Source: Rhodanobacter sp.
GTDB taxonomy: Bacteria; Pseudomonadota; Gammaproteobacteria; Xanthomonadales; Rhodanobacteraceae
Reading direction: 5' to 3'
DNA: 38,924 bases
NCBI GenBank assembly: GCA_004322005.1
Contig: SCRF01000051.1
Coordinates: 1-38,924 of the forward strand
In this document: positions 17,562 through 33,676 of the stretch, in pieces
Numbering within the stretch: the first letter of the stretch is position 1
Layout of the letters: each line of letters opens with the position of its first letter
The notes under the pieces: model-generated
Told to the model about the DNA's origin: nothing
Databases searched by the model: none
The model's input: the letters and a program-made list of their open reading frames with translations, nothing else
Program-made: the position numbers and the translations under genes

Positions 17562-20500
17562 TGTTGGAACGTCTGGTTGAATTTTCCCTGCGCTACAAGG
17601 TGCTGGTGCTGATCATTTTCGTGGTGATCGGGTTCCTCGGTTTCCAGGCCGTGCGTCAGCTGCCCATTGATGCCTTCCCGGACGTGACGCCGGTGCAGGT
17701 CAACGTCTACACCGAAGCCTCGGGACTCGCAGCGGAAGATGTGGAGCAACTCCTCACCACGCCGGTGGAATCGGCGCTCGCCGGTCTGCCCAAGGTCGAG
17801 CAGATCCGCTCGGTGAGCCTGTTCGGCTTGTCGTACGTGTCGGTGTATTTCGACGACAGCATGGACATCTACTTCGCCCGCCAGCTGGTCAACGAGCGGC
17901 TACAGCAGGTGGGGGATCGCCTGCCGGCGGGTTATGGCAAACCGGAAATGGGACCGAACACCTCCGGGCTCGGCCAGGTGTTCTGGTACACCGTCGAACG
18001 CGCTGACGACAAGCTCAAGGGTGCCACCGCCAGCACGGCACCGAGCGACATGGACCTGCGCACGCTGCAGGACTGGACCATCCGCCTGATCCTGCGCACC
18101 GCCCCCGGTGTCGATGACGTCACCTCGTGGGGCGGCCAGGAAAAGCAGTTCCAGGTACGCATCGACCCGATGAAGCTGATCGCGCACAAGCTTGGCTTCA
18201 AGGAGGTGATCGAGGCGCTGCAGACCAACAACGCGCAGGTCGGCGGCAACTTCGTCGATGTCGGACGCGAGCAGTATCTGGTGCGCGGACTGGGCCTGGT
18301 CCAGAACGCCAAGGATCTGGGCAATATCGTGCTGAAGACCGAGGACGGTACGCCGGTCTACGTGCGCGACGTGGCCACCATTACCGAAGCGGGCGCACCA
18401 CGCACCGGTGCGGTGACGCGCGATGGCAAGGAAGTGGTGATGGGCCAGGCGCTGGCCCGCATCGGCGAGAACGCCAAGAGCGTGGTCGATGCGGTCAAGG
18501 CCAAGCTCGACACGGTGAAGCAGGCGTTGCCGCCCGGCGTCGTGGTCAAGCCGGTGTACGAGCGTACCGAACTGGTCAACGCGGCGGTGGAAACGGCCGT
18601 GCGTGCCTTGATCGAAGGTTCGATCCTGGTGGCACTGGTGCTGTTCCTGTTCCTGGGCGAGTTCCGCAGCGCGATGGTGGTCGTGGTGGCGTTGCCCTTG
18701 GCGATGCTGATCGCCTTCATCTGCATGAATCAGGTCGGCTTGTCGGCCAACCTGATGTCGCTGGCGGGCTTGGCGATCGGTATCGGCATGATGGTGGATG
18801 GTGCCGTGGTGATGGTGGAAAACGCCTACCGCATCATGGCTGAGCGCAAGACACATGGCGACCCGGTGGATCGCACGTCGGCGGTGCTGGCGGCCGCGCG
18901 CGAGGTGGCCAATCCGATGGCGTTCGCGATCCTGATCATCATCGTGGTGTTTCTGCCGTTGTTCAGCCTGCAGGGGCTGGAAGGCAAGATGTTCAAGCCG
19001 ATGGCGTTCAACATCAGCTTCGCGATGGCGGGCTCGCTGATCCTCGCACTGACCCTGATACCGGTGCTCGCCGCGCTGGTGTTGAAGCCGAAGGAAGAGA
19101 AGGACACCTGGCTGGTCGCGTTCCTGAAGCGCCACTACGCCACGGTGCTCGCCTGGGCGCTTGCCCGCCGCAAGCTCGTCCTTGGCATCGCCGGCGGAGC
19201 CTTGATCGGCAGCCTGGCGCTGTTCCCGTTCCTGGGCAAGGAGTTCATGCCCAACCTGAAAGAAGGCGCCATCATGTGGCGCATCACCTCGATCCCCTCG
19301 GCCTCGCTGGATGAGTCGATCAACATCTCCAAACAGGTGTCGGCGCTGATCAAGCAGAAGTTTCCGGAGGTGGACACCACGCTGGCGATGATCGGCCGTG
19401 CCGAGAAGGGTGAGACCGCGGACGTGAACTACATGGAGGTCTACACGCCGCTGAAGCCCAAGAATCAATGGCGCAAGGGCGAGACGCTGGAAAGCATCGA
19501 GGAAGCGATGCAGAAGGAATTGTCGGCGGCATTGCCCACCGCGGTAGTGAGCTACACCCAGCCGATCCAGATGCGCATCGAGGAATTGATCTCCGGCGTG
19601 CGGGCCACGTTGGCGCTGAAGATCTACGGCGATGACCTGGGCGAGCTCGATCGTCTCAGTGGCCGCATCAAGAACGTGCTGGCCGGCGTGCCTGGTGTGG
19701 CGGATCTCGCGCTGGAGGCAAACATCGGCAAGCCGCAGATCCGCATCAAGGTGGATCGCGATGCGCTGGCCCGTTACGGCTTGAACGCCGACGACGTGCT
19801 GACGGTGGTGAAGAACGGCATCGGCGGCGAGCCGGTCACCACGCTGCTCGATGGCGTGAAGCGTTTCGATATCGCGGTGCGGCTGGACGATGCGGACAAG
19901 GCGTCCTTGCCGGCGATCCAGCGCATTCCGATCCGAACGGCCAGTGGCGCTTTGGTGCAGCTGTCGCAAGTGGCGGAGGTCAGCGATGCGGAAGGCTATT
20001 CGTTCATTCGCCGTGAGCAGTTGCAGCGCTATGCCGTGATCCAGATGGACGTGCGCGGGCGCGATATCGATGGTTTCGTCAAGGACGCCAACGCCGTCAT
20101 CGCCCAGCAGGTGAAGTTGCCGACCGGCTACTACAGCGAATGGGGCGGCGCGTTCGAGAACCAGCAGCGGGCGTTGAAGCGGTTGTCACTGATCGTGCCG
20201 GCGACGATCTTCTTCATCTTCGTGCTGCTCTACACCGCGTTCAACTCGGTGAAGTACGCCGCGCTGATCCTGGCCAACGTGCCGTTCGCCACCATCGGCG
20301 GCATCGTCGGACTGGCGATCACCGGGCAATATCTGTCGGTGCCGTCGGCGATCGGCTTCATCGCGGTGTTCGGCGTGGCGATGTTGAACGGCATCGTGCT
20401 GGTGAGCTTCTTGAACGAGCAACGCGAGAAGGGCTTGCCCGTGCGGGACGCGGTGATCCGCGGCACCGCGTTGCGCCTGCGCCCGGTGATGATGACGGCG

Positions 20501-20695
20501 AGCGTAGCGATCCTGGGCCTGGTGCCGATGCTGCTCTCCAGCGGCGTCGGTGCGGAGACCCAACGTCCGCTGGCCACCGTGGTGGTGGGCGGTCTGATTA
20601 CTTCGACCCTGCTGACGCTGGTGCTGTTGCCGGTGCTCTACGACTGGATCGAAGAACGCGCCGCCCGGCGCCTCGCCAAGGAGAACACCCCATGA
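17561..20695 (+). CDS. czcA: CzcA-like heavy-metal RND efflux pump
   Basis: A 1044-residue inner-membrane proton-driven pump with twelve helices and two large periplasmic loops. N terminus: MLERLVEFSLRYKVLVLIIF and RQLPIDAFPDVTPVQVNVYT, typical of HME-RND. In helix 4 the run IGMMVDGAVVMVEN keeps D413 and E420, but the position six before D413, an Asp (D402) in the zinc-type CzcA, is Gly. The substrate may therefore differ from Zn/Co/Cd, and the name is by similarity. Two ATGs occur in a row; the second (17561) has better spacing from GGGAG at 17549-17553. Overlaps czcB and the PII-like gene. Confidence 0.92.
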   Translation: MLERLVEFSLRYKVLVLIIFVVIGFLGFQAVRQLPIDAFPDVTPVQVNVYTEASGLAAEDVEQLLTTPVESALAGLPKVEQIRSVSLFGLSYVSVYFDDSMDIYFARQLVNERLQQVGDRLPAGYGKPEMGPNTSGLGQVFWYTVERADDKLKGATASTAPSDMDLRTLQDWTIRLILRTAPGVDDVTSWGGQEKQFQVRIDPMKLIAHKLGFKEVIEALQTNNAQVGGNFVDVGREQYLVRGLGLVQNAKDLGNIVLKTEDGTPVYVRDVATITEAGAPRTGAVTRDGKEVVMGQALARIGENAKSVVDAVKAKLDTVKQALPPGVVVKPVYERTELVNAAVETAVRALIEGSILVALVLFLFLGEFRSAMVVVVALPLAMLIAFICMNQVGLSANLMSLAGLAIGIGMMVDGAVVMVENAYRIMAERKTHGDPVDRTSAVLAAAREVANPMAFAILIIIVVFLPLFSLQGLEGKMFKPMAFNISFAMAGSLILALTLIPVLAALVLKPKEEKDTWLVAFLKRHYATVLAWALARRKLVLGIAGGALIGSLALFPFLGKEFMPNLKEGAIMWRITSIPSASLDESINISKQVSALIKQKFPEVDTTLAMIGRAEKGETADVNYMEVYTPLKPKNQWRKGETLESIEEAMQKELSAALPTAVVSYTQPIQMRIEELISGVRATLALKIYGDDLGELDRLSGRIKNVLAGVPGVADLALEANIGKPQIRIKVDRDALARYGLNADDVLTVVKNGIGGEPVTTLLDGVKRFDIAVRLDDADKASLPAIQRIPIRTASGALVQLSQVAEVSDAEGYSFIRREQLQRYAVIQMDVRGRDIDGFVKDANAVIAQQVKLPTGYYSEWGGAFENQQRALKRLSLIVPATIFFIFVLLYTAFNSVKYAALILANVPFATIGGIVGLAITGQYLSVPSAIGFIAVFGVAMLNGIVLVSFLNEQREKGLPVRDAVIRGTALRLRPVMMTASVAILGLVPMLLSSGVGAETQRPLATVVVGGLITSTLLTLVLLPVLYDWIEERAARRLAKENTP

Positions 20696-21108: not shown

Positions 21109-22074
21109 ATGGCCACGGCCGAATCCCACGAACACGAACACGATCATCACCACGACCACAGTCACGGTGTGGCGCCGGATGCGGACAAGAAGTACCTGAC
21201 CATCGCGTTGCTGTTGCTGCTCGGCTTCATGCTGGTCGAGGTGGTGGTCGGCATCATGGCCAAGTCGCTGGCGTTGATTTCCGATGCCGGCCACATGCTC
21301 ACCGATGTCGGCTCCATCGGGCTGGCCTTGGTGGCCATGCGCCTGGCCAAACGACCGGCCAGCGGGAGCTACACATTCGGACTCAAGCGCGTGGAAATCC
21401 TGAGCGCGCAGGCGAACGGCGTGACGCTGTTGCTGCTGTCGGTCGGGTTCATTGTCGAGGCGATTCGCCGCTTGATCGATCCGCCGGTGGTGGAAGGCTT
21501 GCTCGTCACGGTGATTGCGGCGATCGGCATCGGCGTCAACCTGCTGGCCGTATGGGCGATGAACAAGGCGAACCGCCAAAGCCTCAACGTAAAAGGCAGC
21601 TTTCAGCACATCCTTACCGATCTCTACGCTTTCATCGCCACCGCGATTGCCGGCGCCATCATCTGGTGGACGGGCTGGAATCGCGTGGATTCGATCGCCG
21701 CGCTGGTCGTGGCAGGGTTGATGCTGAAAGCCGGCATCGGACTAGTGCGCGAATCCGGGCGCATTTTTCTGGAAGCGGCGCCACGTGGCCTCGATCCGGT
21801 GAAGATTGCCGAGGCGATCCGCGCCGTGCCAGCGGTGACCCGGCTGGATGACCTGCACGTGTGGGAGGTGACCTCGGGCATGCCGGCACTGTCGGGGCAC
21901 ATTTATGTGAACCACGACATCGACTGCCACGACGTGCGGAGCACCGTCGAGGCGATGCCGCACGATCGCTTCGACATCACACATACCACCTTGCAGACCG
22001 ATCACGCGGCGATCGGTCAGGCCGAATCAGCGAACTGCGCGTTTGAATTCCGTGAGGAACACCCTTCCACCTGA
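21109..22074 (+). CDS. czcD: Cation diffusion facilitator, CzcD-like
   Basis: A 321-residue inner-membrane antiporter exporting Zn or similar cations from the cytoplasm. The N terminus is His-rich (HEHEHDHHHDHSHG). Six helices follow. The metal site uses the HxxxD pairs in LISDAGHMLTD (helix 2) and FQHILTDLYAF (helix 5), the zinc-type pattern. The C-terminal cytoplasmic domain (LDDLHVWEVTSGMPALSGHI) is complete. A good AAAGGAGA ribosome site precedes the ATG at 21109. In Cupriavidus czcD also follows the czc pump genes, where it affects their induction. Confidence 0.92.
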   Translation: MATAESHEHEHDHHHDHSHGVAPDADKKYLTIALLLLLGFMLVEVVVGIMAKSLALISDAGHMLTDVGSIGLALVAMRLAKRPASGSYTFGLKRVEILSAQANGVTLLLLSVGFIVEAIRRLIDPPVVEGLLVTVIAAIGIGVNLLAVWAMNKANRQSLNVKGSFQHILTDLYAFIATAIAGAIIWWTGWNRVDSIAALVVAGLMLKAGIGLVRESGRIFLEAAPRGLDPVKIAEAIRAVPAVTRLDDLHVWEVTSGMPALSGHIYVNHDIDCHDVRSTVEAMPHDRFDITHTTLQTDHAAIGQAESANCAFEFREEHPST

Positions 22075-22337
22075 CGGGTCACCATTTCACCGCCCCAGTC
22101 ACCGTTCTGGATGAAAAATCGGCGATGCACCTTCGCGCTCCCGGCGATCTCTTGAGCTTGCGCTCCCAAACACATGTCGGTTGCCATCGGGTCCGTCCAC
22201 GTGCGCGCGGATGCGCGACACAGATGCGCGATTTCGCAGCCAGTGCGATCAACCGCCTGCGGCTCGGTCGATGGGCGGTCTCCCTGCAACAAGGCGCCGG
22301 CGGCGTCGCGCCATTCACATCGGGTGGTTGTGGCCAA
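22017..22337 (-). other. Unassigned minus-strand open frame, possible gene remnant
   Basis: Between czcD and the bufferin operon, 384 nt carry no certain gene. One minus-strand frame (about 106 residues from a TTG at 22337, open to 22415 without a better start) has protein-like composition and high GC at third positions: CEWRDAAGALLQGDRPSTEP, then FFIQNGDWGGEMVTRQV. It overlaps the 3' end of czcD by 58 nt and has no good start or ribosome site. It may be the tail of a decayed gene. I do not recognise it. Confidence 0.25.
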
Positions 22338-22386
22338 CCCCGAGACTGGCTGCCATGCCGACCACGTTCTGCCTGCAGCCTGCGCA

Positions 22387-22426
22387 TGAATCTTTTTCCG
22401 CCGGCACCTACTCTATGAGGTGCCGG
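22387..22426 (+). promoter_or_regulatory. ECF-type promoter candidate of the bufferin operon with overlapping inverted repeat
   Basis: TGAATCTTTTTCC (22387-22399) and CTATG (22413-22417) are 33-59 nt before the bufA start and recur together at 28941-28972. They resemble -35 and -10 elements of an ECF sigma factor. A perfect 9-bp inverted repeat (CCGGCACCT 22401-22409, AGGTGCCGG 22418-22426) brackets the -10 part and could be an operator or a hairpin at the 5' end of the RNA. Confidence 0.5.
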
Positions 22427-22458
22427 GACATTCCGGTCTACCCTGTACGGAGAGAGAC

Positions 22459-22752
22459 ATGATGAACAGCCACAAGCTGCTGAAGACTGCCCTGATTGGT
22501 GCGCTCACCCTGGGTACCGCTTCGATCGCCACCGCCGCGCCAGCGCCTGCCGGCGCCGGTGCCGACGCCAAGATGAGCATGGTCAAGTGCTACGGCATCA
22601 ATGCCGCGCACAAGAACGACTGCAAGTCGCCGGGTCATTCCTGTGCGGGCCAGGACACCAAGGCTCGCGACGCCAACGCGTTCGTGGCCGTGCCGGCCGG
22701 CCTGTGCGAGAAGATCGCCGGTGGTTCGACCACCCCGGCTTCCAAGGGCTGA
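22459..22752 (+). CDS. bufA1: Bufferin precursor peptide (DUF2282 family)
   Basis: A 97-residue secreted peptide. The signal peptide [20 protein letters not shown] is cut near residue 27. The mature part has four cysteines: C44 (VKCYG), C55 (NDCKS), C62 (HSCAGQ) and C83 (GLCEK), the conserved pattern of DUF2282 peptides. In described bufferins the MNIO enzyme converts cysteines to thiooxazole-type rings and the exported product sequesters copper. A GGAGAGAGA ribosome site fits the first ATG (22459); a second ATG follows at once. It heads the operon bufA-bufB-bufC-doxX. Which metal it binds here is inferred from the family, not shown. Confidence 0.88.
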
Positions 22753-22760
22753 TCGGCGCA

Positions 22761-23627
22761 ATGAGCGAACTGCTGCCCTTCGCGCAGCGACCGATCCCGG
22801 CTGCGGCCGGGATCGGCTTGCGCGCACCGCACATCGAGCGTGTCCTGACGGAGCGTCCGCCCGTGCCGTGGTTCGAAGTGCACAGTGAAAATTATTTCGG
22901 CGCCGGCGGCGCGATGCACGCCGCGCTGTCGCGGATCCGCGCCGATTATCCGCTGAGCCTGCATGGCGTCGGGCTGTCGCTGGGATCCGCCGATGGGCTT
23001 GATCTGCAGCACCTTGCCACGCTGCGGCGGCTGGTCGATCGGTATCAGCCGGCATTGGTTTCCGATCATATCTGCTGGGGCGAGATCGGCGGCGTGCACC
23101 TGAATGATTTGCTGCCGCTGCCATGCACGCAGGAGGCGCTGGATCTGATGGTGTCGCGCGTGCAGCAGGTGCAGGACGCGCTGGGTCGCGAGTTTCTGGT
23201 GGAGAACGTATCCAGCTACCTGAGCTTTCGCCATGCGCAGATGCCGGAGTCGGCGTTCGTGGCGGAACTGGTGCGGCGCAGCGGCTGCGGCCTGCTGCTG
23301 GATGTGAACAACGTCTATGTCAACAGCGTCAATCACGATTTCGATCCACTCGAGTACCTGCGCGCCATGCCGCATGCTTCGGTGCGGGAGATTCATCTGG
23401 CCGGATTCACCCGCAAGGATCAACTGCCGGTGCCATTGCTGATCGACAGCCACAGTCGGCCAGTGGCCGAGGAGGTCTGGTCGCTGTACGAAGAGGCGCT
23501 GGCCCTGTGCGGTCCCACACCCACGCTGATCGAGTGGGATCAGGATATTCCCGAACTGGAGGTGCTGCTGGCGGAAGCCGGCCGCGCCGAGGAGAAGCTG
23601 CATGCCTGCCGCGCCGCGATTGCATGA
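22761..23627 (+). CDS. bufB1: BufB, DUF692/MNIO multinuclear iron oxidase
   Basis: A 288-residue TIM-barrel enzyme of the MNIO family that modifies the precursor peptide in the cytoplasm with a di- or tri-iron centre. Conserved metal-site segments are visible: WFEVHSENYF, LSLHGVGLSLGS, LVSDHICW, LVENVSSYLSF, LLLDVNNVYVN, VREIHLAGF, DSHSRPV and LIEWDQDIPEL, so the ligand His, Asp, Asn and Glu residues appear intact. The start ATG is 8 nt after the bufA stop. The upstream part of the open frame is bufA out of frame. It overlaps bufC by 26 nt. Confidence 0.92.
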   Translation: MSELLPFAQRPIPAAAGIGLRAPHIERVLTERPPVPWFEVHSENYFGAGGAMHAALSRIRADYPLSLHGVGLSLGSADGLDLQHLATLRRLVDRYQPALVSDHICWGEIGGVHLNDLLPLPCTQEALDLMVSRVQQVQDALGREFLVENVSSYLSFRHAQMPESAFVAELVRRSGCGLLLDVNNVYVNSVNHDFDPLEYLRAMPHASVREIHLAGFTRKDQLPVPLLIDSHSRPVAEEVWSLYEEALALCGPTPTLIEWDQDIPELEVLLAEAGRAEEKLHACRAAIA

Positions 23628-24387
23628 ATTGCAGCAGGGCTTTGCCGATGCCGTGCTGGGTCGTGGCGATGCCGTGGCGGCATGGGTCGACGGCGCCGGG
23701 CTCGAGCCGGTGGCACGACTGCGGATTTATCGCAACACGGTCGCCAATACCCTGACGGCAGCCTTGCGTGAAAGCTATCCCGCTGTGCTCGCGCTGGTCG
23801 GGGATGATTTTTTCGATGTGATGGCGGAGCGTTACCGGCTGGCGCATCCCTCGACCTGCGGCAACCTGCAGCATTTCGGGAGCGCACTGGCCGGTTTCAT
23901 CGAGGGCATGCCGGAAGCGCAGACCCTGGGCTATCTGGCGGATGTGGCGAGGCTGGACTGGCTGCGTCAGCTGACCGCGCTGTCGGCCGATGCCGAACCG
24001 GTCGATGCCGCCCGCAGCGCGGCGGCCGCCGTGGTTGAACCTGAAAGCTTGCGGATCGGGCTTCACCCGAGTCTGCATCTGCTGCGCAGCGCGTACCCGG
24101 TGCTGACGCTCTGGCAATGGTGTCAGGCGCCGTCCGGCGCCGCTCCCGGCATGGATGGCGGCGGTGAGCAGGTCCTGCTCTGGCGCGATGGCGGCGATGT
24201 CGCGATGGCTTTGCTCGATCCGGCGACGTTCCGTTGCATCGAGATGCTGGCCGGTCGTCACAGTGTGGCATCGGCCTGGGCGGCGGCGACTGCAGTGGAC
24301 GACGAATTCGATCTTGAGCCCTGTCTGCGGGATCTGCTTGCGCAGGGCTTGATCGTGGCATTTATCGACGAGGAGAGCTCGACATGA
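23602..24387 (+). CDS. bufC1: BufC, DUF2063-type partner of the MNIO enzyme
   Basis: A 261-residue protein with an N-terminal putative DNA-binding-like DUF2063 domain (LHELQQGFADAVLG, RLRIYRNTVANTLTAALRES, YPAVLALVGDDFFDVMAERY) and a variable C-terminal domain with a RiPP-recognition-like winged fold in related proteins. It probably presents the precursor to BufB. The C-terminal third contains one odd hydrophilic insert (PSGAAPGMDGGG). Start ATG 23602 has GGAGAAG at a good distance. Its stop overlaps the doxX start (ATGA). Confidence 0.85.
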   Translation: MPAAPRLHELQQGFADAVLGRGDAVAAWVDGAGLEPVARLRIYRNTVANTLTAALRESYPAVLALVGDDFFDVMAERYRLAHPSTCGNLQHFGSALAGFIEGMPEAQTLGYLADVARLDWLRQLTALSADAEPVDAARSAAAAVVEPESLRIGLHPSLHLLRSAYPVLTLWQWCQAPSGAAPGMDGGGEQVLLWRDGGDVAMALLDPATFRCIEMLAGRHSVASAWAAATAVDDEFDLEPCLRDLLAQGLIVAFIDEESST

Positions 24388-24908
24388 GCAAGTGGATGAC
24401 CCGTGCTGAAGGGTATTGCAACCAACTGGTCCGGGCGTTGTCGGCGCTGGGGCCGGTAGTCCTGTTGCTGTTCCGGGTATGGGTGGCGCTGGCGTTCTGG
24501 CGGGCCGGCGTGGTGAAGTTGGACGATCCTACCGGCACGTCGTATCTGTTCAACTACGAGTATCACGTGCCGCTGATTTCGGGTGACTTTGCGGCATTTC
24601 TGGGCACATGGATCGAGCTGACCACGCCGTGGCTCCTGCTGCTGGGGCTGGGCGGACGACTGACGGCCGGGTTCCTGTTCATCTACAACATCATCGCGGT
24701 CATTTCGTATCCCGACTTGTGGCCGCACGGTTTCTGGGTCGGCTTGATCGGCAGCGACTTCAACGATCACAAGGTCTGGGCGATGATGCTGCTGGCGGTT
24801 GTCGCCTGGGGTCCGGGCGCATTGTCGATCGACCGCCTTCTCGGACGATTCTGGCCTCGTGCCGGTCGCCTGCACAAGGCAGAGCCGCTGCTTGCAAGCG
24901 TGAAGTGA
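24384..24908 (+). CDS. DoxX-family membrane protein of the bufferin operon
   Basis: A 174-residue inner-membrane protein with four helices (VVLLLFRVWVALAFWRAGVV, LTTPWLLLLGLGGRLTAGFL, FIYNIIAVISY, VWAMMLLAVVAWGPGALSID). DoxX proteins are common fourth members of DUF692/DUF2063 operons. They may pass electrons or help with redox balance or export; this is unproven. It is a different subgroup from the broken doxX at 11.5-12.0 kb. Start ATG overlaps the bufC stop. After it come 115 nt without a gene before the sigma factor. Confidence 0.85.
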   Translation: MSKWMTRAEGYCNQLVRALSALGPVVLLLFRVWVALAFWRAGVVKLDDPTGTSYLFNYEYHVPLISGDFAAFLGTWIELTTPWLLLLGLGGRLTAGFLFIYNIIAVISYPDLWPHGFWVGLIGSDFNDHKVWAMMLLAVVAWGPGALSIDRLLGRFWPRAGRLHKAEPLLASVK

Positions 24909-25023
24909 CGGGATGTCGGTGCGCGACGCAATTTGAATCCGGTCGCGTTGTCGGTCACGTGTTTGGGCAAGAGCTGCGCGACCGATGACGCCCCACTCCT
25001 GAACGAGTTGTACAAGGTGCCCC

Positions 25024-25533
25024 ATGCAACACGACCCCATGCTGGTGGAAGCCGCGCGCCAAGGCGACCTCGTGGCCGTTGAGCGGTTGCTGACCCTGTG
25101 CCGTCCCGACCTGCGCCGGATCGCCCAGTCGCAATGCGCCGCCGGTGTCGACGCCGACGATGCCGTGCAGGAGTCGCTGTTGCTGATCTACAAGCGTATC
25201 GGCGCACTGCGCACGATAGCTTCGTTTCCGGGCTGGATATTCTCGATCGTGCGCAGGGAGTGTTACCGGCTGCTGCGGATGGTGCGCGGGCAGGCGCCAT
25301 TGCCGGATTCCGATCACCCGGTGTTTACCTACAATGACCACACTGACCTGCAGTACGATCTGGCGGCAGCCATTCAATCGCTGCCGGACAAGTACCGTGA
25401 GGCGATCATTTTGCGCGACTTCGAGGAGTTTTCCATCAGCGAAATCGCCGACCAGTTGTTGCTGACGCGAGAGGCAGTGAAGAGCCGCATTCATCGTGGT
25501 CGGCAGATGGTGCAGGAGTATCTGAAGGACTGA
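25024..25533 (+). CDS. ECF-type RNA polymerase sigma factor
   Basis: A 169-residue sigma-70 family factor with only regions 2 and 4. Region 2: VDADDAVQESLLLIYKRIGA and SFPGWIFSIVRRECYRLL. Region 4: LPDKYREAIILRDFEEFSIS then EIADQLLLTREAVKSRIHRG. No anti-sigma gene of the usual kinds is adjacent; the following small gene is not one I can call an anti-sigma factor. Position right after the bufferin operon suggests it transcribes that operon, and perhaps the arsenosugar operon, through the shared TGAATCTTTTTCC/CTATG motif. In Caulobacter bufferin genes are also under an ECF factor (SigF), which supports the idea. Confidence 0.88.
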   Translation: MQHDPMLVEAARQGDLVAVERLLTLCRPDLRRIAQSQCAAGVDADDAVQESLLLIYKRIGALRTIASFPGWIFSIVRRECYRLLRMVRGQAPLPDSDHPVFTYNDHTDLQYDLAAAIQSLPDKYREAIILRDFEEFSISEIADQLLLTREAVKSRIHRGRQMVQEYLKD

Positions 25534-25597
25534 TTGTTTCTCCACGAATCCGGGCGCACGGGCGCGCCGGTCGATCTCTTCCAATGACGGAGACACC

Positions 25598-25744
25598 ATG
25601 AATACCTATCTGCGCGCCATGATCGCCGGCTTCATCGCCGCGGTCGTCCTGTCCATCCTGATGTTCGTGAAGCTGGTGCTGCATCTGATCTGGGGTGCCG
25701 TGCTTGGCACTACCTTCGGTGCGCTCGGCCGCTCGGCCGCCTAG
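25598..25744 (+). CDS. 48-residue membrane protein, apparently internally deleted
   Basis: ATG at 25598 with GGAG 6 nt upstream; 48 codons ending TAG. The product is almost all hydrophobic: MNTYLRAMIAGFIAAVVLSI, then LMFVKLVLHLIWGAVLG and TTFGALGRSAA. By recall, the first part resembles the N-terminal helix and the second the C-terminal helix of a 130-150 residue DUF6789-type membrane protein, so an in-frame loss of the middle is likely, near codon 25. It could still make a two-helix hairpin. It lies between the sigma factor and the flavoprotein, same strand. Confidence 0.55.
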   Translation: MNTYLRAMIAGFIAAVVLSILMFVKLVLHLIWGAVLGTTFGALGRSAA

Positions 25745-25833
25745 CGCTTCGCGTATCCCACTGCGGCGCCAGCGATGGCGGGGTGCCGCAGCCGCATGGC
25801 TGACGATTTCGTTTCCTCCGGGCTGTTCAACAC

Positions 25834-27975
25834 ATGAAAAACAAGACCACGCTGATCCGGTGGCTGATCGTCATTGGATTGCTTGGCGCGGTAGCCGCCT
25901 TCTTCGCGCTGGGCCTGCAGCACCAATTCACCCTTGAGGCGCTGAAGGCGCGGCAGCATGCGCTGGATGGTTTCCGGCAAGCCCATCCGTGGCTGCTGGC
26001 CGGCGCGTTTTTCCTGATCTATGTGGCCTTTGCGGCCTTGTCACTGCCGGCCGCGACGCTGCTGACCCTTGCCGCCGGTGCCGTGTTCGGTCTGCTGGAG
26101 GGCATGCTGCTGGTGTCGTTCGCCTCCAGCATCGGCGCGAGCCTGGCGTTTCTGGCCAGTCGGTTCGTGTTCCGCGATGCCGTGCAGCAGCGTTTCGGCA
26201 AGCGCCTGCAGGCGATCGACAAGGGCATGCAGCGCGAAGGTGCGCTGTACCTGTTCACCCTGCGGCTGGTGCCGGTGATCCCGTTCTTCGTGGTCAACCT
26301 GCTGATGGGACTGACGGCGCTGCCGGTACGCACGTTCTACTGGGTCAGCCAGGTCGGCATGCTGGCGGCGACGCTGGTCTTCGTCAACGCGGGGACCCAG
26401 CTGGCCAGCCTGCAATCGCTGTCCGGCATCCTGTCGCCCAGGATCATCGGCTCGTTCGTGCTGCTGGGCGTGTTTCCGCTGCTGGCGCGATGGATCGTGG
26501 ACCGGGTGAAGGCCCGTCGCGTGTATGCGCGCTGGCCGAAGCCGAAGCAGTTCGACCGCAACCTGGTGGTGATCGGTGCCGGCTCGGCCGGGCTGGTCAC
26601 CGCGTACATTGCTGCGGCGGTACGCGCCAAGGTCACCCTGATCGAGCAACACGCGATGGGGGGCGATTGCCTCAATACCGGTTGCGTACCGTCGAAAGCG
26701 CTGATCCATAGCGCCCGGCTGGCAACGCAGGCCCGCGATGCGGGCCGGGCCGGCGTGCATGTCGGTGAGGTGCGGGTCGATTTCCGGGCGGTGATGGAAC
26801 GTGTGCAGCAGGCGGTCGCGACGGTGGCGCCACACGATTCGGTCGAGCGCTACCGCGAACTGGGCGTCGACGTGCGACGCGGTCGCGCCCGCATCGTCTC
26901 GCCATGGGTGGTGGAGCTCGACGGCAGGCCGATCCGCACCCGGTCCATCGTGATCGCCTCGGGCGCCCGACCCCTGGTGCCGCCGATTCCCGGCATCGAG
27001 GAGGCCGGCTACCTGACCTCGGACACGCTGTGGCAACTGCGCGAACTGCCCAGGCGCCTGCTGGTGCTCGGTGGCGGTCCGATCGGCTGCGAGCTGGCGC
27101 AGGCGTTCGCCCGGCTGGGTTCGAGCGTGACCCAGGTCGAGGCGCTCGATCGCCTGCTGATTCGCGAGGACGACGAGGTTTCGGCGTTCGTGCGGGCGCG
27201 TCTGACCGCCGATGGCGTCGACGTGCGTACCGGCTGCAAGGCAGTGCGGGTGGAACCGGGCAGCGACGGCACGGTGCTGGTCTGCGAATCCGCAGGCCGG
27301 ACCCTGCGACTGCCCTACGACATCTTGCTGGTGGCGGTGGGGCGCAAGCCGCGCACCGCCGGCTTCGGCCTCGAGGAACTGGGCATCCCGGTCGCCACCA
27401 CGGTGGAGACCGATGCCTACCTGGCCACGTTGTACCCGAACATCTACGCCTGTGGCGATGTCGCCGGTCCGTATCAGTTCACGCATACCGCCGCGCATCA
27501 GGCGTGGTATGCCGCGGTCAATGCGTTGTTCGGCCAGTTTCGCCGCTTCCGTGCCGACTACTCGGTGATCCCGGCGGTGACTTTCGTCGACCCCGAGGTG
27601 GCGCGCGTCGGCCTCAACGAACGCGAAGCACGGGAACAGGGGATTGCCTGCGAAGTCACGCGCTATGATCTGGACGACCTGGACCGGGCGATCACCGAGG
27701 ATCATGCGCACGGATTCCTGAAAATCCTGACGCCGCCCGGCAAGGACCGCATCCTTGGCGCGACGATCGTGGGCCAGCATGCGGGCGAGTTGCTGGCCGA
27801 GTTCGTGCTGGCGATGCGCCACGGCCTGGGCCTGAACAAGATCCTCGGCACCATCCATGCCTATCCGACCTGGGCCGAGGCCAACAAGTACGCGGCCGGC
27901 AACTGGAAGAAGGCCCATGCGCCGGAGCGTGTCCTGGGCTGGTTGGCGCGGTATCACGCGTGGCGGTTAAAGTGA
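25834..27975 (+). CDS. TVP38/TMEM64 membrane domain fused to mercuric-reductase-like flavoprotein
   Basis: A 713-residue fusion. Residues 1-230 are a DedA/TVP38-type membrane domain (LPAATLLTLAAGAVFGLLEG, LFTLRLVPVIPFFVVNLLMG). Residues 245-713 are a pyridine nucleotide-disulfide oxidoreductase: FAD motif VIGAGSAGLVTA, redox pair in GGDCLNTGCVPSKAL (about C278/C283), NAD(P) motif VLGGGPIGCELAQAF, YACGDVAGPYQFTHTAAHQA, and the catalytic HAYPTWAE. It lacks the MerA N-terminal HMA domain and the C-terminal Cys pair, so Hg reduction is doubtful. The substrate is unknown; a membrane-bound disulfide or quinone reductase is possible. ATG 25834. Confidence 0.9.
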   Translation: MKNKTTLIRWLIVIGLLGAVAAFFALGLQHQFTLEALKARQHALDGFRQAHPWLLAGAFFLIYVAFAALSLPAATLLTLAAGAVFGLLEGMLLVSFASSIGASLAFLASRFVFRDAVQQRFGKRLQAIDKGMQREGALYLFTLRLVPVIPFFVVNLLMGLTALPVRTFYWVSQVGMLAATLVFVNAGTQLASLQSLSGILSPRIIGSFVLLGVFPLLARWIVDRVKARRVYARWPKPKQFDRNLVVIGAGSAGLVTAYIAAAVRAKVTLIEQHAMGGDCLNTGCVPSKALIHSARLATQARDAGRAGVHVGEVRVDFRAVMERVQQAVATVAPHDSVERYRELGVDVRRGRARIVSPWVVELDGRPIRTRSIVIASGARPLVPPIPGIEEAGYLTSDTLWQLRELPRRLLVLGGGPIGCELAQAFARLGSSVTQVEALDRLLIREDDEVSAFVRARLTADGVDVRTGCKAVRVEPGSDGTVLVCESAGRTLRLPYDILLVAVGRKPRTAGFGLEELGIPVATTVETDAYLATLYPNIYACGDVAGPYQFTHTAAHQAWYAAVNALFGQFRRFRADYSVIPAVTFVDPEVARVGLNEREAREQGIACEVTRYDLDDLDRAITEDHAHGFLKILTPPGKDRILGATIVGQHAGELLAEFVLAMRHGLGLNKILGTIHAYPTWAEANKYAAGNWKKAHAPERVLGWLARYHAWRLK

Positions 27976-27983
27976 AGCATGTA

Positions 27984-28775
27984 TCAATGAGTTGGCGGGT
28001 CCAGTGGCTGGCGAAGCAGTGCCAGCAACCGTTGCTCATCCTCCGCGCGATAGCGATCGAGCCCCAGTTTCATGGATGACTGCGGCGATGCGGGCATCTC
28101 CCGGTAGCTGCGGAACAGACGATCCCACCACGACACGTGGAAGCCGAAATTGCTGTCGTGCTCCGCCGGCAACACCGAATGGTGGATGCGGTGCATGTCG
28201 GGGGTCACGAAGATCCATCGCAACCGGCGGTCGAGACGCACCGGCAGGTCGAGGTTGGCATGGGTGAGCAGGGCGAAGCTGCTCAGCACGATCTCGAAGG
28301 CCAGTACGGCGAGCGGTGGGGCGCCCAGCAACAGGACAACCGCGATCTTGATCCCCATCGACAGCAGGATTTCGACCGGGTGAAAGCGCACGCCCGAGCT
28401 GACATCGAGCGCCATGTCGGTATGGTGCACGCGGTGCAGGCGCCACAACGCGCCGATCCGGTGCATCAGGCGATGCTGCGCATAGATCGCCAGGTCCAGG
28501 GTGACGAAGGCGATTACCACCGCCATCCACGCCGGCAGCTGCCACAGGTGCAATGCCCCGATGTTTTCGGCCTGCGCCCACAGTGCGGCATCCACCGCCA
28601 GCCAGGGCAGCAGCAGGCGCACGCACAACGCATTGATCAGGCCCAGGCCAAGGTTCACCGGCCAGCGTTGCCGGCGATGCGGGGCCGCGGAGTGCCGCGG
28701 CCGGAACCGCTCGGCGATGCCCAGCAGGGCGAGCAGGGAAAGGAACAGCCAGAGGCGAAGCGCAGGGTCATTCAT
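27984..28775 (-). CDS. Sterol desaturase/fatty acid hydroxylase family protein
   Basis: A 263-residue integral membrane di-iron oxygenase-like protein. The His clusters that hold the iron pair are complete: QHRLMH, HRVHH, HANL and HRIHH, separated by hydrophobic helices (LPAWMAVVIAFVTLDLAIYA). Substrate (lipid, carotenoid or sterol-like) cannot be told. The ATG at 28775 is near a possible divergent promoter region shared with the arsenosugar operon. It converges on the TVP38 flavoprotein gene, with only 8 nt between the two stops. Confidence 0.85.
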   Translation of the reverse strand: MNDPALRLWLFLSLLALLGIAERFRPRHSAAPHRRQRWPVNLGLGLINALCVRLLLPWLAVDAALWAQAENIGALHLWQLPAWMAVVIAFVTLDLAIYAQHRLMHRIGALWRLHRVHHTDMALDVSSGVRFHPVEILLSMGIKIAVVLLLGAPPLAVLAFEIVLSSFALLTHANLDLPVRLDRRLRWIFVTPDMHRIHHSVLPAEHDSNFGFHVSWWDRLFRSYREMPASPQSSMKLGLDRYRAEDEQRLLALLRQPLDPPTH

Positions 28776-28870
28776 GCGTGGGGTGGAATTGCTGAAAGGT
28801 CGGGGAGACGCGTCGATGATGCGGTTTTTTCATCATGCCCCATAGCCCGGTCCGGGTCGGTGAAGCATAG

Positions 28871-28899
28871 CTGACCGCCATCCGGCAGGCTGCTAGACT
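28871..28899 (+). promoter_or_regulatory. Promoter-like motif upstream of the arsenosugar operon
   Basis: CTGACC (28871-28876) and TAGACT (28894-28899) are 17 nt apart, inside CCGGCAGGCTGCTAGACT, which matches the upstream regions of the FHA gene and pip. It is a plausible housekeeping promoter in the 255-nt non-coding stretch between 28776 and the possible small ORF at 29031. Confidence 0.45.
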
Positions 28900-28940
28900 C
28901 GCGGGCGCAACTCGCCTTCGGAAACGCCGTCGCGACAACA

Positions 28941-28972
28941 TGAATCTTTTTCCCGATTCACTGCCTCCTATG
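28941..28972 (+). promoter_or_regulatory. Second copy of the ECF-type promoter candidate
   Basis: TGAATCTTTTTCC (28941-28953) and CTATG (28968-28972) repeat the elements found before bufA, with spacing one nucleotide longer. It lies 59 nt before the possible small ORF and 166 nt before arsS. Confidence 0.45.
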
Positions 28973-29030
28973 GACGCGCTGCCATCGAGTTTCTGCCTTG
29001 CGACCGGCTTGTGAACGCGATGACAGAGCG

Positions 29031-29141
29031 ATGACCGTCCGGACCTCGGCCTCACTTCGGTTTTGCCGGGTCCACCCCGATGACCCCACCTGCATGGCGC
29101 CGGTGATCCATGATTGCGGGCACCACCTGGATTCCTTGTGA
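29031..29141 (+). CDS. Possible 36-codon Cys/His-containing ORF coupled to arsS
   Basis: ATG 29031 to TGA 29141. The peptide reads MTVRTSASLRFCRVHPDDPT then CMAPVIHDCGHHLDSL: three Cys and four His in 36 residues. About 80 percent of codons end in G or C, as in true genes here. Its stop overlaps the arsS GTG by GTGA, the standard coupling seen through the rest of the operon. Against it: no clear ribosome site, no recognised family, and the frame is open further upstream to 28944. It could be a metal-binding peptide or a leader that controls arsS translation. Confidence 0.35.
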   Translation: MTVRTSASLRFCRVHPDDPTCMAPVIHDCGHHLDSL

Positions 29142-30118
29142 ACGCCGTCCTCTCTACCGCATCGCCATCGTTTGGTCGCACCCTGCGCGAGCACGGGCTG
29201 GCCTTGCCGCGCACGCCGCTGGAAATCCTGCAGGTCAATGTCGGCAAGCTGTGCGACCTGGCCTGCCAGCACTGCCACGTCGAGGCCGGCCCCAAGCGCA
29301 CCGAAATCATGCAGGCGGCCACCGTCGAGCGCATTCTCGAACTGCTGGCCGATGCTCCCGGCGTGCATACGCTGGACCTGACCGGCGGCGCACCCGAGCT
29401 CAACCCGCATTTCCGCACCCTGGTGCGCGAGGCGCGGGCGCTGGGCAAGACCGTCATCGACCGCTGCAACCTGACCGTGCTGTTTCGCCCGGGGCAGCAG
29501 GATACCGCCGAATTCCTGGCCGCGCAGGGCGTCAAGGTGGTCGCCTCGCTGCCGTGCTACAGCAAGGCCAACGTCGAACAGCAGCGCGGCCAGCACGTGT
29601 TCGATCCCAGCCTGCGCGCGCTGCACCAGCTCAACGCGCTCGGCTACGGCCAGGCGGACTCGGGGCTGGAACTGGACCTGGTCTACAACCCGCTGGGTGC
29701 GACGCTGCCGCCGGCACAGCTGGCGCTGGAGGCGACCTACCGGCGCGAGCTGGCCGAGCATTTCGGCATCGTGTTCAACCGCCTGTTCACCATTACCAAC
29801 ATGCCGATCAAGCGTTTCCTGCATCTGCTGGAACGCGAGGGGCGTTACGAAACCTACATGCACACCCTGCTCGATGCGTTCAACCCGCAGGCCGCGCTGG
29901 GCGTGATGTGCCGCAACCTGCTGTCGGTGAGCTGGGACGGTCTGCTCTACGACTGCGATTTCAACCAGGCGCTGGAGCTGCCGCTGGGCGGCCGCCAACG
30001 CAGCGTGTGGGATATCGCCAGGCTGGCCGACATCGAGAGCGGCCCGATCGTCTTTGCCAATCATTGTTATGGCTGCACCGCCGGCGCGGGCAGCTCCTGT
30101 GGAGGATCGTTGACATGA
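29138..30118 (+). CDS. arsS: ArsS, radical SAM arsenosugar biosynthesis protein
   Basis: A 326-residue radical SAM enzyme that acts on methylated arsenic to build the deoxyadenosyl arsenic precursor of arsenosugars. The cluster motif CX3CX2C is in VGKLCDLACQHCHVEAGPKR. Other family segments: LDLTGGAPELNPHFR, VVASLPCYSKANVEQQRG, NRLFTITNMPIKRFL, and the C-terminal Cys-rich CYGCTAGAGSSCGG, which may bind arsenic. I chose the GTG at 29138 because it overlaps the small ORF stop and fits family N termini; a TTG at 29114 is also in frame. Its stop overlaps arsM (ATGA). Confidence 0.9.
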   Translation: MNAVLSTASPSFGRTLREHGLALPRTPLEILQVNVGKLCDLACQHCHVEAGPKRTEIMQAATVERILELLADAPGVHTLDLTGGAPELNPHFRTLVREARALGKTVIDRCNLTVLFRPGQQDTAEFLAAQGVKVVASLPCYSKANVEQQRGQHVFDPSLRALHQLNALGYGQADSGLELDLVYNPLGATLPPAQLALEATYRRELAEHFGIVFNRLFTITNMPIKRFLHLLEREGRYETYMHTLLDAFNPQAALGVMCRNLLSVSWDGLLYDCDFNQALELPLGGRQRSVWDIARLADIESGPIVFANHCYGCTAGAGSSCGGSLT

Positions 30119-31182
30119 ACATGGACCTGGAACACGAAGTCGAGGGCACGGCCGAAGAACAGCAATCGGCGGTGCGCAGCTATTACGGCGAAACGCTGCA
30201 GTCGAGCAACGACCTGCGCACCACGGCGTGCTGCAGCATCGATGCGATGCCCGAGCACCTGCGCACGATCCTGGCCCGGTTGCACCCGGAAGTGCGCGAC
30301 CGTTTCTACGGCTGCGGTTCGCCGCTGCCGCCGGCACTGGACGGCATGACGGTGCTCGACCTGGGCTGCGGCAGCGGTCGCGATGCCTACCTGTTGTCGA
30401 AGCTGGTCGGCGAGCGGGGTCATGTCATCGGCGTCGACATGACGGCGCAGCAGCTGGCCGTCGCCGAGCGGCATCGCGACTTTCACGCGCAGGCCTTCGG
30501 ACATGCCCGCTCCAATGTCACGTTTCATCTGGGCGACCTGGCCGATCTCGCCGCACTCGGCATTGCCGACGGGTCGGTCGACGTGGTGGTATCCAATTGC
30601 GTGCTGAACCTGGTGCCGGACAAGCGCCGCGCGTTTGCCGAGATCCTGCGTGTACTCAAGCCCGGCGGCGAGCTGTATTTCTCCGACGTCTACAGCGACC
30701 GCCGGCTGCCGCGCGAGCTGCTGGCCGATCCGGTGTTGCTCGGCGAATGTCTGGCCGGCGCGCTGTACGTGGAGGATTTTCGCCGCCTGCTGGGCGAACT
30801 CGGGGTGGCCGACGCACGCGTGTGCGCGCGCAGTCCGATCGCACTGACCGACGCGGCGATCGAGCAGAAGATCGGTTTTGCCCGTTTCGAGTCGATCACC
30901 TGGCGCGCTTTCAAGCTGCCGCTGGAGGATCGTTGCGAGGACTACGGCCAGGCCGCGACCTACCTCGGCACGCTGCCGGCGTATCCGCACCGGTTTGCGC
31001 TGGACGATCATCACCTGTTCGAGAGCGGCAAGCCGTTGCGGGTCTGCGGCAACAGCGCCGACATGCTGGCTGGCAGCCGCTACGCGGCGCATTTCCGCAT
31101 CGACGGCGACAAGCGGCGGCACTTCGGCCTGTTCGATTGCGCCCCGGTCACGCCGGCGAGTACGTCGGCCAGCTGCTGCTGA
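30115..31182 (+). CDS. arsM: ArsM, arsenite methyltransferase
   Basis: A 355-residue SAM-dependent enzyme methylating As(III). SAM motif: MTVLDLGCGSGRDAYLLSKL, then GVDMTAQQLAVAERH. Conserved thiols sit in LRTTACCSIDAMPEHL (N-terminal Cys), VVVSNCVLNLVPDK (central Cys) and EDRCEDYG in the C-terminal part, with VCGNSADMLA and a terminal SASCC; these match the multi-Cys arsenic site of ArsM. The product feeds ArsS. ATG 30115 overlaps the arsS stop. In this operon no arsR regulator is seen. Confidence 0.92.
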   Translation: MNMDLEHEVEGTAEEQQSAVRSYYGETLQSSNDLRTTACCSIDAMPEHLRTILARLHPEVRDRFYGCGSPLPPALDGMTVLDLGCGSGRDAYLLSKLVGERGHVIGVDMTAQQLAVAERHRDFHAQAFGHARSNVTFHLGDLADLAALGIADGSVDVVVSNCVLNLVPDKRRAFAEILRVLKPGGELYFSDVYSDRRLPRELLADPVLLGECLAGALYVEDFRRLLGELGVADARVCARSPIALTDAAIEQKIGFARFESITWRAFKLPLEDRCEDYGQAATYLGTLPAYPHRFALDDHHLFESGKPLRVCGNSADMLAGSRYAAHFRIDGDKRRHFGLFDCAPVTPASTSASCC

Positions 31183-31183
31183 G

Positions 31184-31897
31184 ATGTCGATGAGCCATCG
31201 TCACCCGGCTGCCTCGCGTTCGCTGTCGGTGATCGTGCCGTTGGCGCCCGGCGAGACCGAGTGGCGGGGGTTGCTGCAGCAGCTGACCTCGCTGCCGGCC
31301 GGCAGCGAGGTGATCGTGGTGCGTGCCGACGATGAATCATGGCCGGCACCCGCCACCTGGCCGATACGGCTGCGCTATCGGGAGTGCCACAGCAAGCCCG
31401 GGCGCGCCCGGCAGCTCAACCTCGGGGCGCGGCAGGCCACCGGCCACTGGCTGTGGTTCCTGCATGCCGATTCGCGCCTGCGGCCGGACAGCCTGCACGA
31501 ATTGCGACGGTTTCTGGCCGAAGGCATCGATGCGCTGGGCTGGTTCCAGCTCGCCTTCCGCAAGGACGGGCCGCGCTGGACGGTCCTGAACGCGGCAGGT
31601 GCCAACCTGCGTTCACGCTGGCTCGGGCTGCCGTTCGGCGATCAGGGACTGGTGTTGCCGCGACACTGTTTCGAGGCCCTGCACGGATTCGACGAGCAGG
31701 CTCGTTATGGCGAGGATCATCTGCTGGTGTGGGCCGCGCGTCATGCCGCCCTGCCGCTGCGCCGCATTCCCGCGTGGCTGGAAACCAGCGCGCGCAAATA
31801 CGCCCAGCAGGGCTGGCTGACCACCACGCTCAGGCACTGGCGGCGAACCACCGCGCAGGCTTGGCCCGCATGGCGCGCGCGGCGCAGAGCCACATGA
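31184..31897 (+). CDS. Arsenosugar-type family 2 glycosyltransferase (TIGR04283-like)
   Basis: A 237-residue GT-A glycosyltransferase: LSVIVPLAPGETEWRGLLQQ at the start, RQLNLGARQATGHWLWFLHA with the acidic HADS motif, GWFQLAFRKDGPRW, and FGDQGLVLPRHCFEALHGFD. It belongs to the group found beside arsS/arsM and thought to transfer the sugar or headgroup in arsenosugar synthesis. The assignment comes from recall of that family plus context. Start is ATG 31184 or 31190, two nt after the arsM stop. Its stop overlaps the next gene (ATGA). Confidence 0.85.
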   Translation: MSMSHRHPAASRSLSVIVPLAPGETEWRGLLQQLTSLPAGSEVIVVRADDESWPAPATWPIRLRYRECHSKPGRARQLNLGARQATGHWLWFLHADSRLRPDSLHELRRFLAEGIDALGWFQLAFRKDGPRWTVLNAAGANLRSRWLGLPFGDQGLVLPRHCFEALHGFDEQARYGEDHLLVWAARHAALPLRRIPAWLETSARKYAQQGWLTTTLRHWRRTTAQAWPAWRARRRAT

Positions 31898-32586
31898 CCG
31901 CGGCGCTGGCGATCTTCGTCAAGACCCCCGGGTTGTCGCCCGTGAAGACGCGGCTGGCGGCTGCGCTGGGCGCGGTCGAAGCCACCGGGTTCTACCGGCT
32001 GGCCGCGGCGGCCACGGCCGAAGTCGTGCGCAGCTGCCAGCCGGCACTCACGCCATACTGGGCGGTTGCCGAGGCCGGCCCGGTGGCCGCCGCCGCATGG
32101 CCTGGCTTTGCGCAACTGGAGCAGGGCGAAGGCGATCTGGGTGAACGGCTCGATCACGTCTATGCCACGCTGCAGGCGCGGCATGGACGGGCGGTGCTGA
32201 TCGGCGCCGACGCCCCGCAGCTGACGCCGGCCATGCTCCAGGCGGCACGGGCCGCGCTGGACGATCCAGGCACGCCATTCGTGCTCGGCGGAGCCAGCGA
32301 TGGCGGCTTCTGGCTGTTCGGCGGCCGGGTGCCGATTCCGAAAACCGTCTGGTGCACGGTGCGCTATTCGCAGGCCTGCACCGCATCCGAATTGCGCACC
32401 ATGCTGGCAGCTCATGGCGAGGTCGCCAACCTGCCCATGCTGACCGACGTCGACAGCGCTGCGAGCCTGCCTGCCCTGGCCCACGCCCTGGCGACACTGG
32501 CCGATCCGCTGCCGGCGCAACGCGCCCTGCAGGACTGGCTGCACACCACCCTGGATCGCACCTTGCTGACGGGAACCCACGCATGA
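31894..32586 (+). CDS. Arsenosugar-type nucleotidyltransferase/glycosyltransferase (TIGR04282-like)
   Basis: A 230-residue GT-A/CofC-like protein (DUF2064). The N terminus LAIFVKTPGLSPVKTRLAAA is the nucleotide-binding signature; GDLGERLDHVY, AVLIGADAPQLTPAM and LGGASDGGFWLFGG follow. In arsS/arsM clusters it pairs with the TIGR04283 protein. It may activate a sugar or glycerol headgroup; the true reaction is not established as far as I know. It overlaps both neighbours by 4 nt. Confidence 0.85.
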   Translation: MTAALAIFVKTPGLSPVKTRLAAALGAVEATGFYRLAAAATAEVVRSCQPALTPYWAVAEAGPVAAAAWPGFAQLEQGEGDLGERLDHVYATLQARHGRAVLIGADAPQLTPAMLQAARAALDDPGTPFVLGGASDGGFWLFGGRVPIPKTVWCTVRYSQACTASELRTMLAAHGEVANLPMLTDVDSAASLPALAHALATLADPLPAQRALQDWLHTTLDRTLLTGTHA

Positions 32587-33674: not shown

Positions 33675-33676
33675 GC

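Follow-up and report, generated by a model that had tools for sequence, protein, structure and literature searches.

Two described systems come closest to the locus analysed here, the SigF-NrsF system of Caulobacter crescentus and the gigPABT operon of Cupriavidus metallidurans, which we take to be of the bufferin type. In C. crescentus, the extracytoplasmic function (ECF) sigma factor SigF is paired with the DUF1109 negative regulator NrsF and controls bufferin-type operons of the composition DUF2282-DUF692-DUF2063-DoxX under heavy-metal stress (PMC3511200). The gigPABT-rpoQ-rsqA genes comprise a copper- and gold-induced operon next to an ECF sigma gene (PMC10304878), and Buf1 gene clusters bring DUF2282, MNIO, DUF2063, DoxX and sigma factor genes together (PMC12452194). 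ECF control of bufferin-type operons (PMC3511200) and sigma genes in bufferin clusters (PMC12452194) are therefore already known. Here, we analysed a stretch of 38,924 nucleotides from Rhodanobacter sp. (GCA_004322005.1, contig SCRF01000051.1, termed the window), in which the same short element precedes a bufferin operon and an operon for a putative arsenosugar pathway, with an ECF sigma gene located between them. Judging from the sequence, we consider it likely that this element serves as promoter for a small ECF regulon, which would be controlled by the sigma factor of 25024-25533 and would cover both operons. The features concerned are the following.

22387 to 22417, forward strand: predicted ECF-type promoter of the bufferin operon, TGAATCTTTT-N14-CTCTATG, from sequence; its exact 13-mer has a single further occurrence in the genome
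22462 to 22752 (alternative start 22459), forward strand: bufA, DUF2282 bufferin precursor of 96 residues (Pfam PF10048, 7e-20, 71 bits)
22761 to 23627, forward strand: bufB, MNIO (DUF692) bufferin maturase (Pfam PF05114; NCBIfam NF050167, 394 bits, cut-off 310)
23602 to 24387, forward strand: bufC, DUF2063 partner protein (Pfam PF09836)
24384 to 24908, forward strand: DoxX membrane protein (Pfam PF07681)
25024 to 25533, forward strand: ECF sigma factor of 169 residues (Pfam Sigma70_r2, PF04542, and r4_2, PF08281), co-occurring with the motif
28941 to 28972, forward strand: predicted ECF-type promoter of the arsenosugar operon, TGAATCTTTT-N14-CTCCTATG, from sequence; orthologous site in the related genomes G043 and G037
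29138 to 30118, forward strand: arsS, arsenosugar radical SAM enzyme (TIGR04167, 442 bits, cut-off 300)
30115 to 31182, forward strand: arsM-like arsenite methyltransferase (methyltransferase by Pfam; best NCBIfam models below their cut-offs)
31184 to 31897, forward strand: TIGR04283 arsenosugar glycosyltransferase (190 bits, cut-off 182)
31894 to 32586, forward strand: TIGR04282-type arsenosugar glycosyltransferase, DUF2064 (132.6 bits, cut-off 134; PF09837 on the longer open reading frame)
32583 to 33674, forward strand: PiT-type phosphate transporter (partial NCBIfam match to PitA, below cut-off), recurrent in the cluster
34003 to 34033, forward strand: third occurrence of the motif, TGAATCCTTT-N14-CTCTGAT, with zero mismatches

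With a DUF2282 precursor, a BufB-type MNIO maturase, a DUF2063 partner and DoxX, the first operon has the make-up of a bufferin (Buf1) cluster; the bufA product scored below the cut-off of the BufA2 model. The sigma protein combines regions 2 and 4 in a short chain, as is typical of ECF factors, so that the ECF sigma gene which the original prediction had placed between the two operons is confirmed at 25024-25533. As in the described pathway in which ArsS is named (PMC12159101), the second operon encodes an ArsS radical SAM enzyme, together with an ArsM-like methyltransferase and TIGR04282/04283-type glycosyltransferases, and a putative arsenosugar pathway is predicted from these gene families. 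The ArsM-like protein reached 109 bits with the arsenosugar-type model NF038099 (cut-off 400) and 176 with the best other arsenite methyltransferase model (cut-off 263).

The locus resembles the SigF-NrsF system in that similar promoters precede the sigma gene and the operons (PMC3511200), in our case with respect to the sigma genes of relatives. However, the SigF-NrsF promoter reads GTAACC-N16-CGAA, in contrast to TGAATCTTTT-N14-CTC in the window, and SigF is paired with NrsF, whereas the window sigma gene has no adjoining NrsF gene (PMC3511200). Neither NrsF beside the sigma gene nor GTAACC-N16-CGAA promoters were found in the window; a tblastn search of the window with one NrsF protein gave no match at E ≤ 1, no recognised anti-sigma gene lies beside the sigma gene, and the sole NrsF gene found in the same genome is located on a different contig (C132). 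The regulon proposed here moreover includes arsenosugar genes, while the available part of the SigF-NrsF paper contains no mention of 'arsen' (PMC3511200). The gigPABT operon is divergent from its sigma gene and has a predicted anti-sigma factor; in the part of that paper accessible to us, direct control by RpoQ is not demonstrated and 'arsen' is absent (PMC10304878). As far as its main text is available, the Buf1 cluster survey uses neither 'arsen' nor 'promoter' (PMC12452194). The original prediction had known of no link of this kind and, within the incompletely covered open-access literature, we likewise came across no description of arsenosugar genes under ECF control or of a connection between bufferins and ArsS.

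The 13-mer TGAATCTTTTTCC is present at 22387-22399 and 28941-28953 and is followed by CTATG at 22413-22417 and 28968-28972, leaving gaps of 13 and 14 nucleotides, respectively. Positions, identity of the first element and the one-nucleotide difference in spacing thus agree with what had been predicted. The two different spacers result from the choice of CTATG as anchor; with CTC instead, the distance from TGAATC is 18 nucleotides at both sites. The predicted position of 33-59 nucleotides before bufA had to be corrected, as the element begins 72-75 nucleotides upstream of the bufA start (22459 or 22462) and CTATG ends about 41-44 nucleotides upstream. The arsS gene starts with GTG at 29138, about 165 nucleotides past CTATG.

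A genome-wide motif search had been proposed as a check. In the 3,598,108 bases of the genome, exact TGAATCTTTTTCC occurs at these two sites only, with one further variant at one mismatch. Allowing up to two mismatches, the window contains three matches to the 13-mer versus 0.26 expected, a number reached in none of 100 shuffles. The relaxed motif TGAATC[CT]TTT-N14-CTC has three zero-mismatch sites in the genome, all of them in the window (22387, 28941 and 34003), the last one being absent from the original prediction. At up to two mismatches to the relaxed motif, 29 matches were obtained versus 18 for a reversed control, so that zero-mismatch sites are the informative class. No recognised regulon gene follows the three one-mismatch sites or the 13-mer variant elsewhere in the genome. 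Sigma-70 and terminator scans of 22300-34400 remained at chance level, and Rfam gave no match at gathering scores in 22000-34500.

The relaxed motif was first found by scanning the loci of orthologous genes, where it lies before bufA, the sigma gene and arsS. The exact 13-mer was dropped as motif, since it is present in none of 44 relatives of the same genus, some of which carry the relaxed form instead; a constant CTATG with variable spacer was also dropped, as CTC at constant distance fits better. The refined motif reads YGAATCYTTT-N14-CTC with a constant spacer. In order to avoid circularity, every distinct YGAATCYTTT in loci L009-L083 was taken without requiring CTC, and in 23 of 23 such sites in arsS, sigma and MNIO loci CTC followed at the same distance. 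In a manual alignment of 45 sites, GAATC, two Ts and CTC were invariant and the spacer variable; this set had been chosen at up to one mismatch, with some sites left out, e.g., a PiT site (L170) with ATC for CTC.

To relate the motif to the sigma gene, 120 genomes were surveyed, 45 of them from the genus of the window, including its own genome, and the rest from the family and order. Homologues of the window sigma factor at E ≤ 1e-20 were present in 16 genomes. These sigma-positive genomes contain 40 zero-mismatch motif matches (13 of 16 have at least one), compared to six matches in the 104 sigma-negative genomes, where five genomes are hit; the reversed control gave no match in all 120. Within the genus, the motif is present in 12/13 sigma-positive versus 1/32 sigma-negative genomes (Fisher 6e-9, not corrected for relatedness), and arsS in 11/13 versus 2/32.

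The 1.5 kb following each of the 40 sites were compared with known genes and the first match was counted. Seven recurrent families account for 36 sites: bufA (12), the sigma gene (8), a Cys/Lys-repeat peptide with DUF6969 (6), arsS (3), a CBS-domain protein (3, broken in the window), a short-chain dehydrogenase (2) and DUF427 (2). The sites before bufA come from 12 sigma-positive genomes; whether motif matches precede other DUF2282 operons had been proposed as a check. Sigma genes with a site of their own were found in eight of the 16 sigma-positive genomes at zero mismatches and in three more (G023, G026 and G100) at one. The remaining four sites have no recurrent gene in the next 1.5 kb; in G043, one of them is followed by a C92 papain-like protein, and a member of this family also lies behind the sigma gene of Mesorhizobium tianshanense (59% identical sigma).

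The secreted Cys/Lys-repeat peptide with DUF6969 follows the motif at L141 6803, L144 15275, L145 6005, L147 15097, L158 5173 and L163 4712, and a CGAATC form of the motif precedes the same peptide in a seventh relative (L161 3791). A class of precursors with Lys-Cys repeats, which this peptide resembles, has been described (PMC12668002), and the peptide may be another metallophore. At L160 (G043:C94), a second sigma paralogue, 75% identical, has a one-mismatch motif just downstream.

In the regulon as we propose it, the sigma factor of 25024-25533 very probably targets RNA polymerase to a -35 element YGAATCYTTT and a -10 element CTC[TC]AT; both its binding to the motif and a transcription start there we infer from the sequences. 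The first target in the genus would be the bufferin operon bufA-bufB-bufC-doxX, the second the gene of the sigma factor itself (11 of 16 sigma-positive genomes, eight at zero and three at one mismatch). From the sigma promoter, TVP38/FAD-arsS-arsM-glycosyltransferase-PiT would be transcribed as well, probably by read-through. Where arsS is cut off from the sigma gene, as in the window, the arsenosugar operon would be a third target with its own promoter copy. Further members in relatives may be the Cys/Lys-repeat peptide with DUF6969, the CBS-domain protein, the short-chain dehydrogenase and DUF427. In most relatives, the sigma factor would act in a positive feedback, promoting its own gene and both operons. 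As the sigma gene of the window lacks the motif, it may be transcribed by polymerase reading through from the bufA promoter; the gap between doxX and the sigma gene is 115 nucleotides.

Thiophilic metal stress is suggested as signal by RND-type efflux genes just upstream of the bufferin operon, as well as by the fact that the gig operon responds to copper and gold (PMC10304878), and a metalloid or a related stress would fit the same picture. For the original prediction that one metal- or stress-responsive ECF factor drives both operons, the co-occurrence and the sites before the sigma gene and the arsenosugar genes, the latter marked at several entry points, lend good support to the single factor; the motif is missing before the window's own sigma gene, and the signal is one that we infer. 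Joint control would suggest that bufferin and arsenosugar operons answer one stress. With the promoter signature, the complete regulon could be searched for, which may show what bufferin and ArsS clusters protect against. It could further be tested whether copper-like stress, beyond arsenic alone, elicits a response of bacterial arsenosugar genes.

An alternative that we regard as unlikely is that the motif is real and common to both operons, yet read by another ECF sigma factor or by an activator together with sigma-70, with the sigma gene being merely a linked member. The missing motif before the window sigma gene would fit this scenario, as would the NrsF anti-sigma gene on another contig, since a second such ECF system may exist, and the second close sigma paralogue in G043. 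However, the motif tracks the window-type sigma gene over 120 genomes and precedes it in eight relatives, two boxes at a fixed distance suit a sigma factor, and the published SigF/NrsF promoter GTAACC-N16-CGAA is a different sequence (PMC3511200).

For the arsenosugar side of the proposed regulon, the genes around arsS have to be considered, which in the window include the following.

25598 to 25744, forward strand: 48-residue open reading frame, an internally shortened DUF6789 membrane protein (about 150 residues in relatives; Pfam PF20587 on the G037 copy)
25834 to 27975, forward strand: TVP38/VTT domain fused to a MerA-like FAD disulfide oxidoreductase (Pfam), a recurrent arsS neighbour
27984 to 28775, reverse strand: sterol desaturase / fatty acid hydroxylase family protein, encoded in the interval from TVP38/FAD to arsS (Pfam PF04116)
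33677 to 33813, forward strand: remnant of a short-chain dehydrogenase; alignment to the G043 protein is restricted to its residues 1-23 and 110-131
34144 to 34346, forward strand: remnant of a CBS-domain gene, with partial alignments in two frames; the intact gene has its own motif in G043

In eight genomes (G030, G040, G002, G011, G012, G023, G005 and G026), the sigma gene, TVP38/FAD, arsS, arsM, glycosyltransferase, DUF2064 and PiT follow each other on one strand, with DUF2064 present in six of the eight and PiT partial in G026. The gap between TVP38 and arsS is about 50-210 nucleotides in six of them; in G011 and G026 it measures about 0.8 kb. In none of these eight genomes, where arsS lies downstream of TVP38 on the same strand within 0.9 kb, does arsS have a motif of its own within 500 nucleotides at up to one mismatch. 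The arrangement is different in three cases, the window, G043 and G037: here arsS is separated from sigma-TVP38, and each of the three carries the motif 197-204 nucleotides before arsS. The arsS genes of the other two genomes are 94 and 85% identical to that of the window; the boxes are full in all three and kept in G043, where the spacer is altered. PiT genes with a one-mismatch site were found in G040, G002 and L170, a Rhodanobacter metagenome-assembled genome. In G108, from another family (sigma 43-44% identical), and in L180, a gammaproteobacterial metagenome-assembled genome (38%), TVP38/FAD and its followers are divergent from the sigma gene, and CGAATCCTTT-N14-CTC precedes TVP38/FAD in both and in L180 also arsM.

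It is also improbable, in our estimate, that only the bufferin operon is a true target and that the arsS site is a relic of former membership in the sigma operon, a copied promoter now irrelevant. The short-chain dehydrogenase, CBS-domain and DUF6789 genes of the window are broken, which suggests that this end of the regulon is decaying, and arsS has a long leader of about 165 nucleotides. On the other hand, the boxes of the arsS site are complete in three genomes, even in G043 with its altered spacer, and the frames of arsS, arsM and glycosyltransferase are open. That the two identical 13-mers arose by chance, or as a spread repeat without regulatory meaning, is hardly credible and was rejected even though the motif is short, has six matches in the 104 sigma-negative genomes and its exact 13-mer appears in five order-level genomes, since it is contradicted by site placement: all three sites of the genome are confined to this window, where cluster genes or a remnant follow them, 40 matches stand against six and against none for the reversed control in 120 genomes, 36 of 40 sites precede seven recurrent families, and CTC is equidistant in 23 of 23.

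Several results weigh against a regulon read by this sigma factor. The sigma gene of the window lacks the motif even at up to two mismatches, with a degenerate -35-like stretch as the only trace upstream, and those of G043, G019, G067 and G108 lack it in loci scanned at up to one mismatch. The genus member without a zero-mismatch motif, G026, has just a single one-mismatch site, located before its sigma gene. The three arsS sites are orthologous and thus count as one origin instead of three. G001 and G008 contain arsS without the sigma gene and without the motif, and the motif was found in none of 29 arsS loci from other families (600 nucleotides upstream, up to one mismatch; the best-scoring of 138 positive genomes); taken together, this indicates that the arsenosugar link via this promoter is lineage-limited. 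The exact 13-mer is present in five order-level genomes. In an order sample of 398 genomes, the strict motif form was present in 9/38 sigma-positive and also in 8/360 sigma-negative genomes, making the order-wide test weaker than the genus test. The 24 of 38 order-level sigma loci that were inspected encode homologues of 44-51% identity, many with variant upstream sequences, CGAATC or CGAACC in many, not all. An MNIO gene lies downstream of sigma in 23 of these 24 loci, the remaining one having a short flank.

Bufferin and arsenosugar genes also adjoin each other without this sigma factor. On a megaplasmid of Cupriavidus sp. KK10, a one-strand run of about 11 kb comprises bufA-MNIO-DUF2063-DoxX, an unknown gene, PiT and arsM, followed by a CMD (AhpD-like) protein, arsS, FAD oxidoreductase, TVP38 and glycosyltransferase-like matches. 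The run is divergent from a different ECF sigma gene (28% identical to that of the window) with an NrsF anti-sigma gene; another gene, about 6 kb upstream, encodes a closer sigma homologue (44%), and the 37-kb stretch contains no motif site at up to one mismatch. Of 274 genomes sampled across the class, 138 contain arsS and, among the matches listed, at least 170 contain MNIO. Both occur in at least 94 of the 273 other genomes, a weak association (Fisher 0.025, among the matches listed). Reading the coordinates by eye, we found arsS and MNIO within 5 kb in at least five genomes from three families (G649, G533, G491, G536 and G652), five being a lower bound, versus about 0.5 expected by chance under rough assumptions (3-Mb genomes, 1.3 MNIO copies). 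In G649 and G533, from one family, bufA-MNIO-DUF2063-DoxX-arsS form a run on one strand with 9 nucleotides between doxX and arsS, and ArsS and MNIO of G649 score above their NCBIfam cut-offs. Other genes lie between MNIO and arsS in G491, and in G536 and G652 the MNIO cluster is divergent from TVP38-PiT-arsS-arsM. None of the five loci has the motif before arsS.

Since the two gene sets are joined repeatedly, by the shared ECF promoter, in the bufA-bufB-bufC-doxX-arsS run and in the Cupriavidus run beside a SigF/NrsF-like pair, we tentatively raise the possibility, doubtful as it is, that they form one old metal(loid)-defence module and are not merely two targets of one regulator. If so, the ArsS-side enzymes may handle a thiophilic metalloid captured by the peptide or, alternatively, ArsS may act on the peptide system itself. 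At L330 (6963-7268 and 11041-12003), a BufA2-type peptide above the NCBIfam cut-off, MNIO and an FAD oxidoreductase are divergent from TVP38-PiT-arsS-arsM, which gives a further neighbourhood of bufferin and arsenosugar genes.

As for the remaining neighbours, the DUF6789, short-chain dehydrogenase and CBS-domain genes of the window are shortened remnants of genes that are intact in relatives, and in G043 the intact short-chain dehydrogenase and CBS-domain genes each have their own promoter motif. DUF6789 is the gene found in some relatives between sigma and TVP38, where an anti-sigma gene had been sought; it is not taken for one because the sigma-TVP38 gap in G030, G012, G040 and G002 (29-98 nucleotides) is too small. 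A sterol desaturase / fatty acid hydroxylase gene also occurs next to arsS or in its vicinity in L180, G108 and Thiodictyon. The efflux genes upstream of the bufferin operon, at 15163-20695, encode an outer-membrane factor, a CusB/HlyD-type adaptor and an AcrB-type pump, and a short cation-efflux protein is encoded at 12299-12916. G030 contains three further MNIO copies (C1 2014376, 2227577 and 2255395) with identical scores and 77% identity to that of the window, perhaps on a repeated element. Upstream of distant sigma homologues (39-46%), YGAATCCTTT-N14-CTCTTG was observed at L181 3208 (Nocardia mexicana), L296 7691 (Ensifer adhaerens) and L179 9697 (Mesorhizobium), so that promoters of this type might be shared by a wider ECF family.

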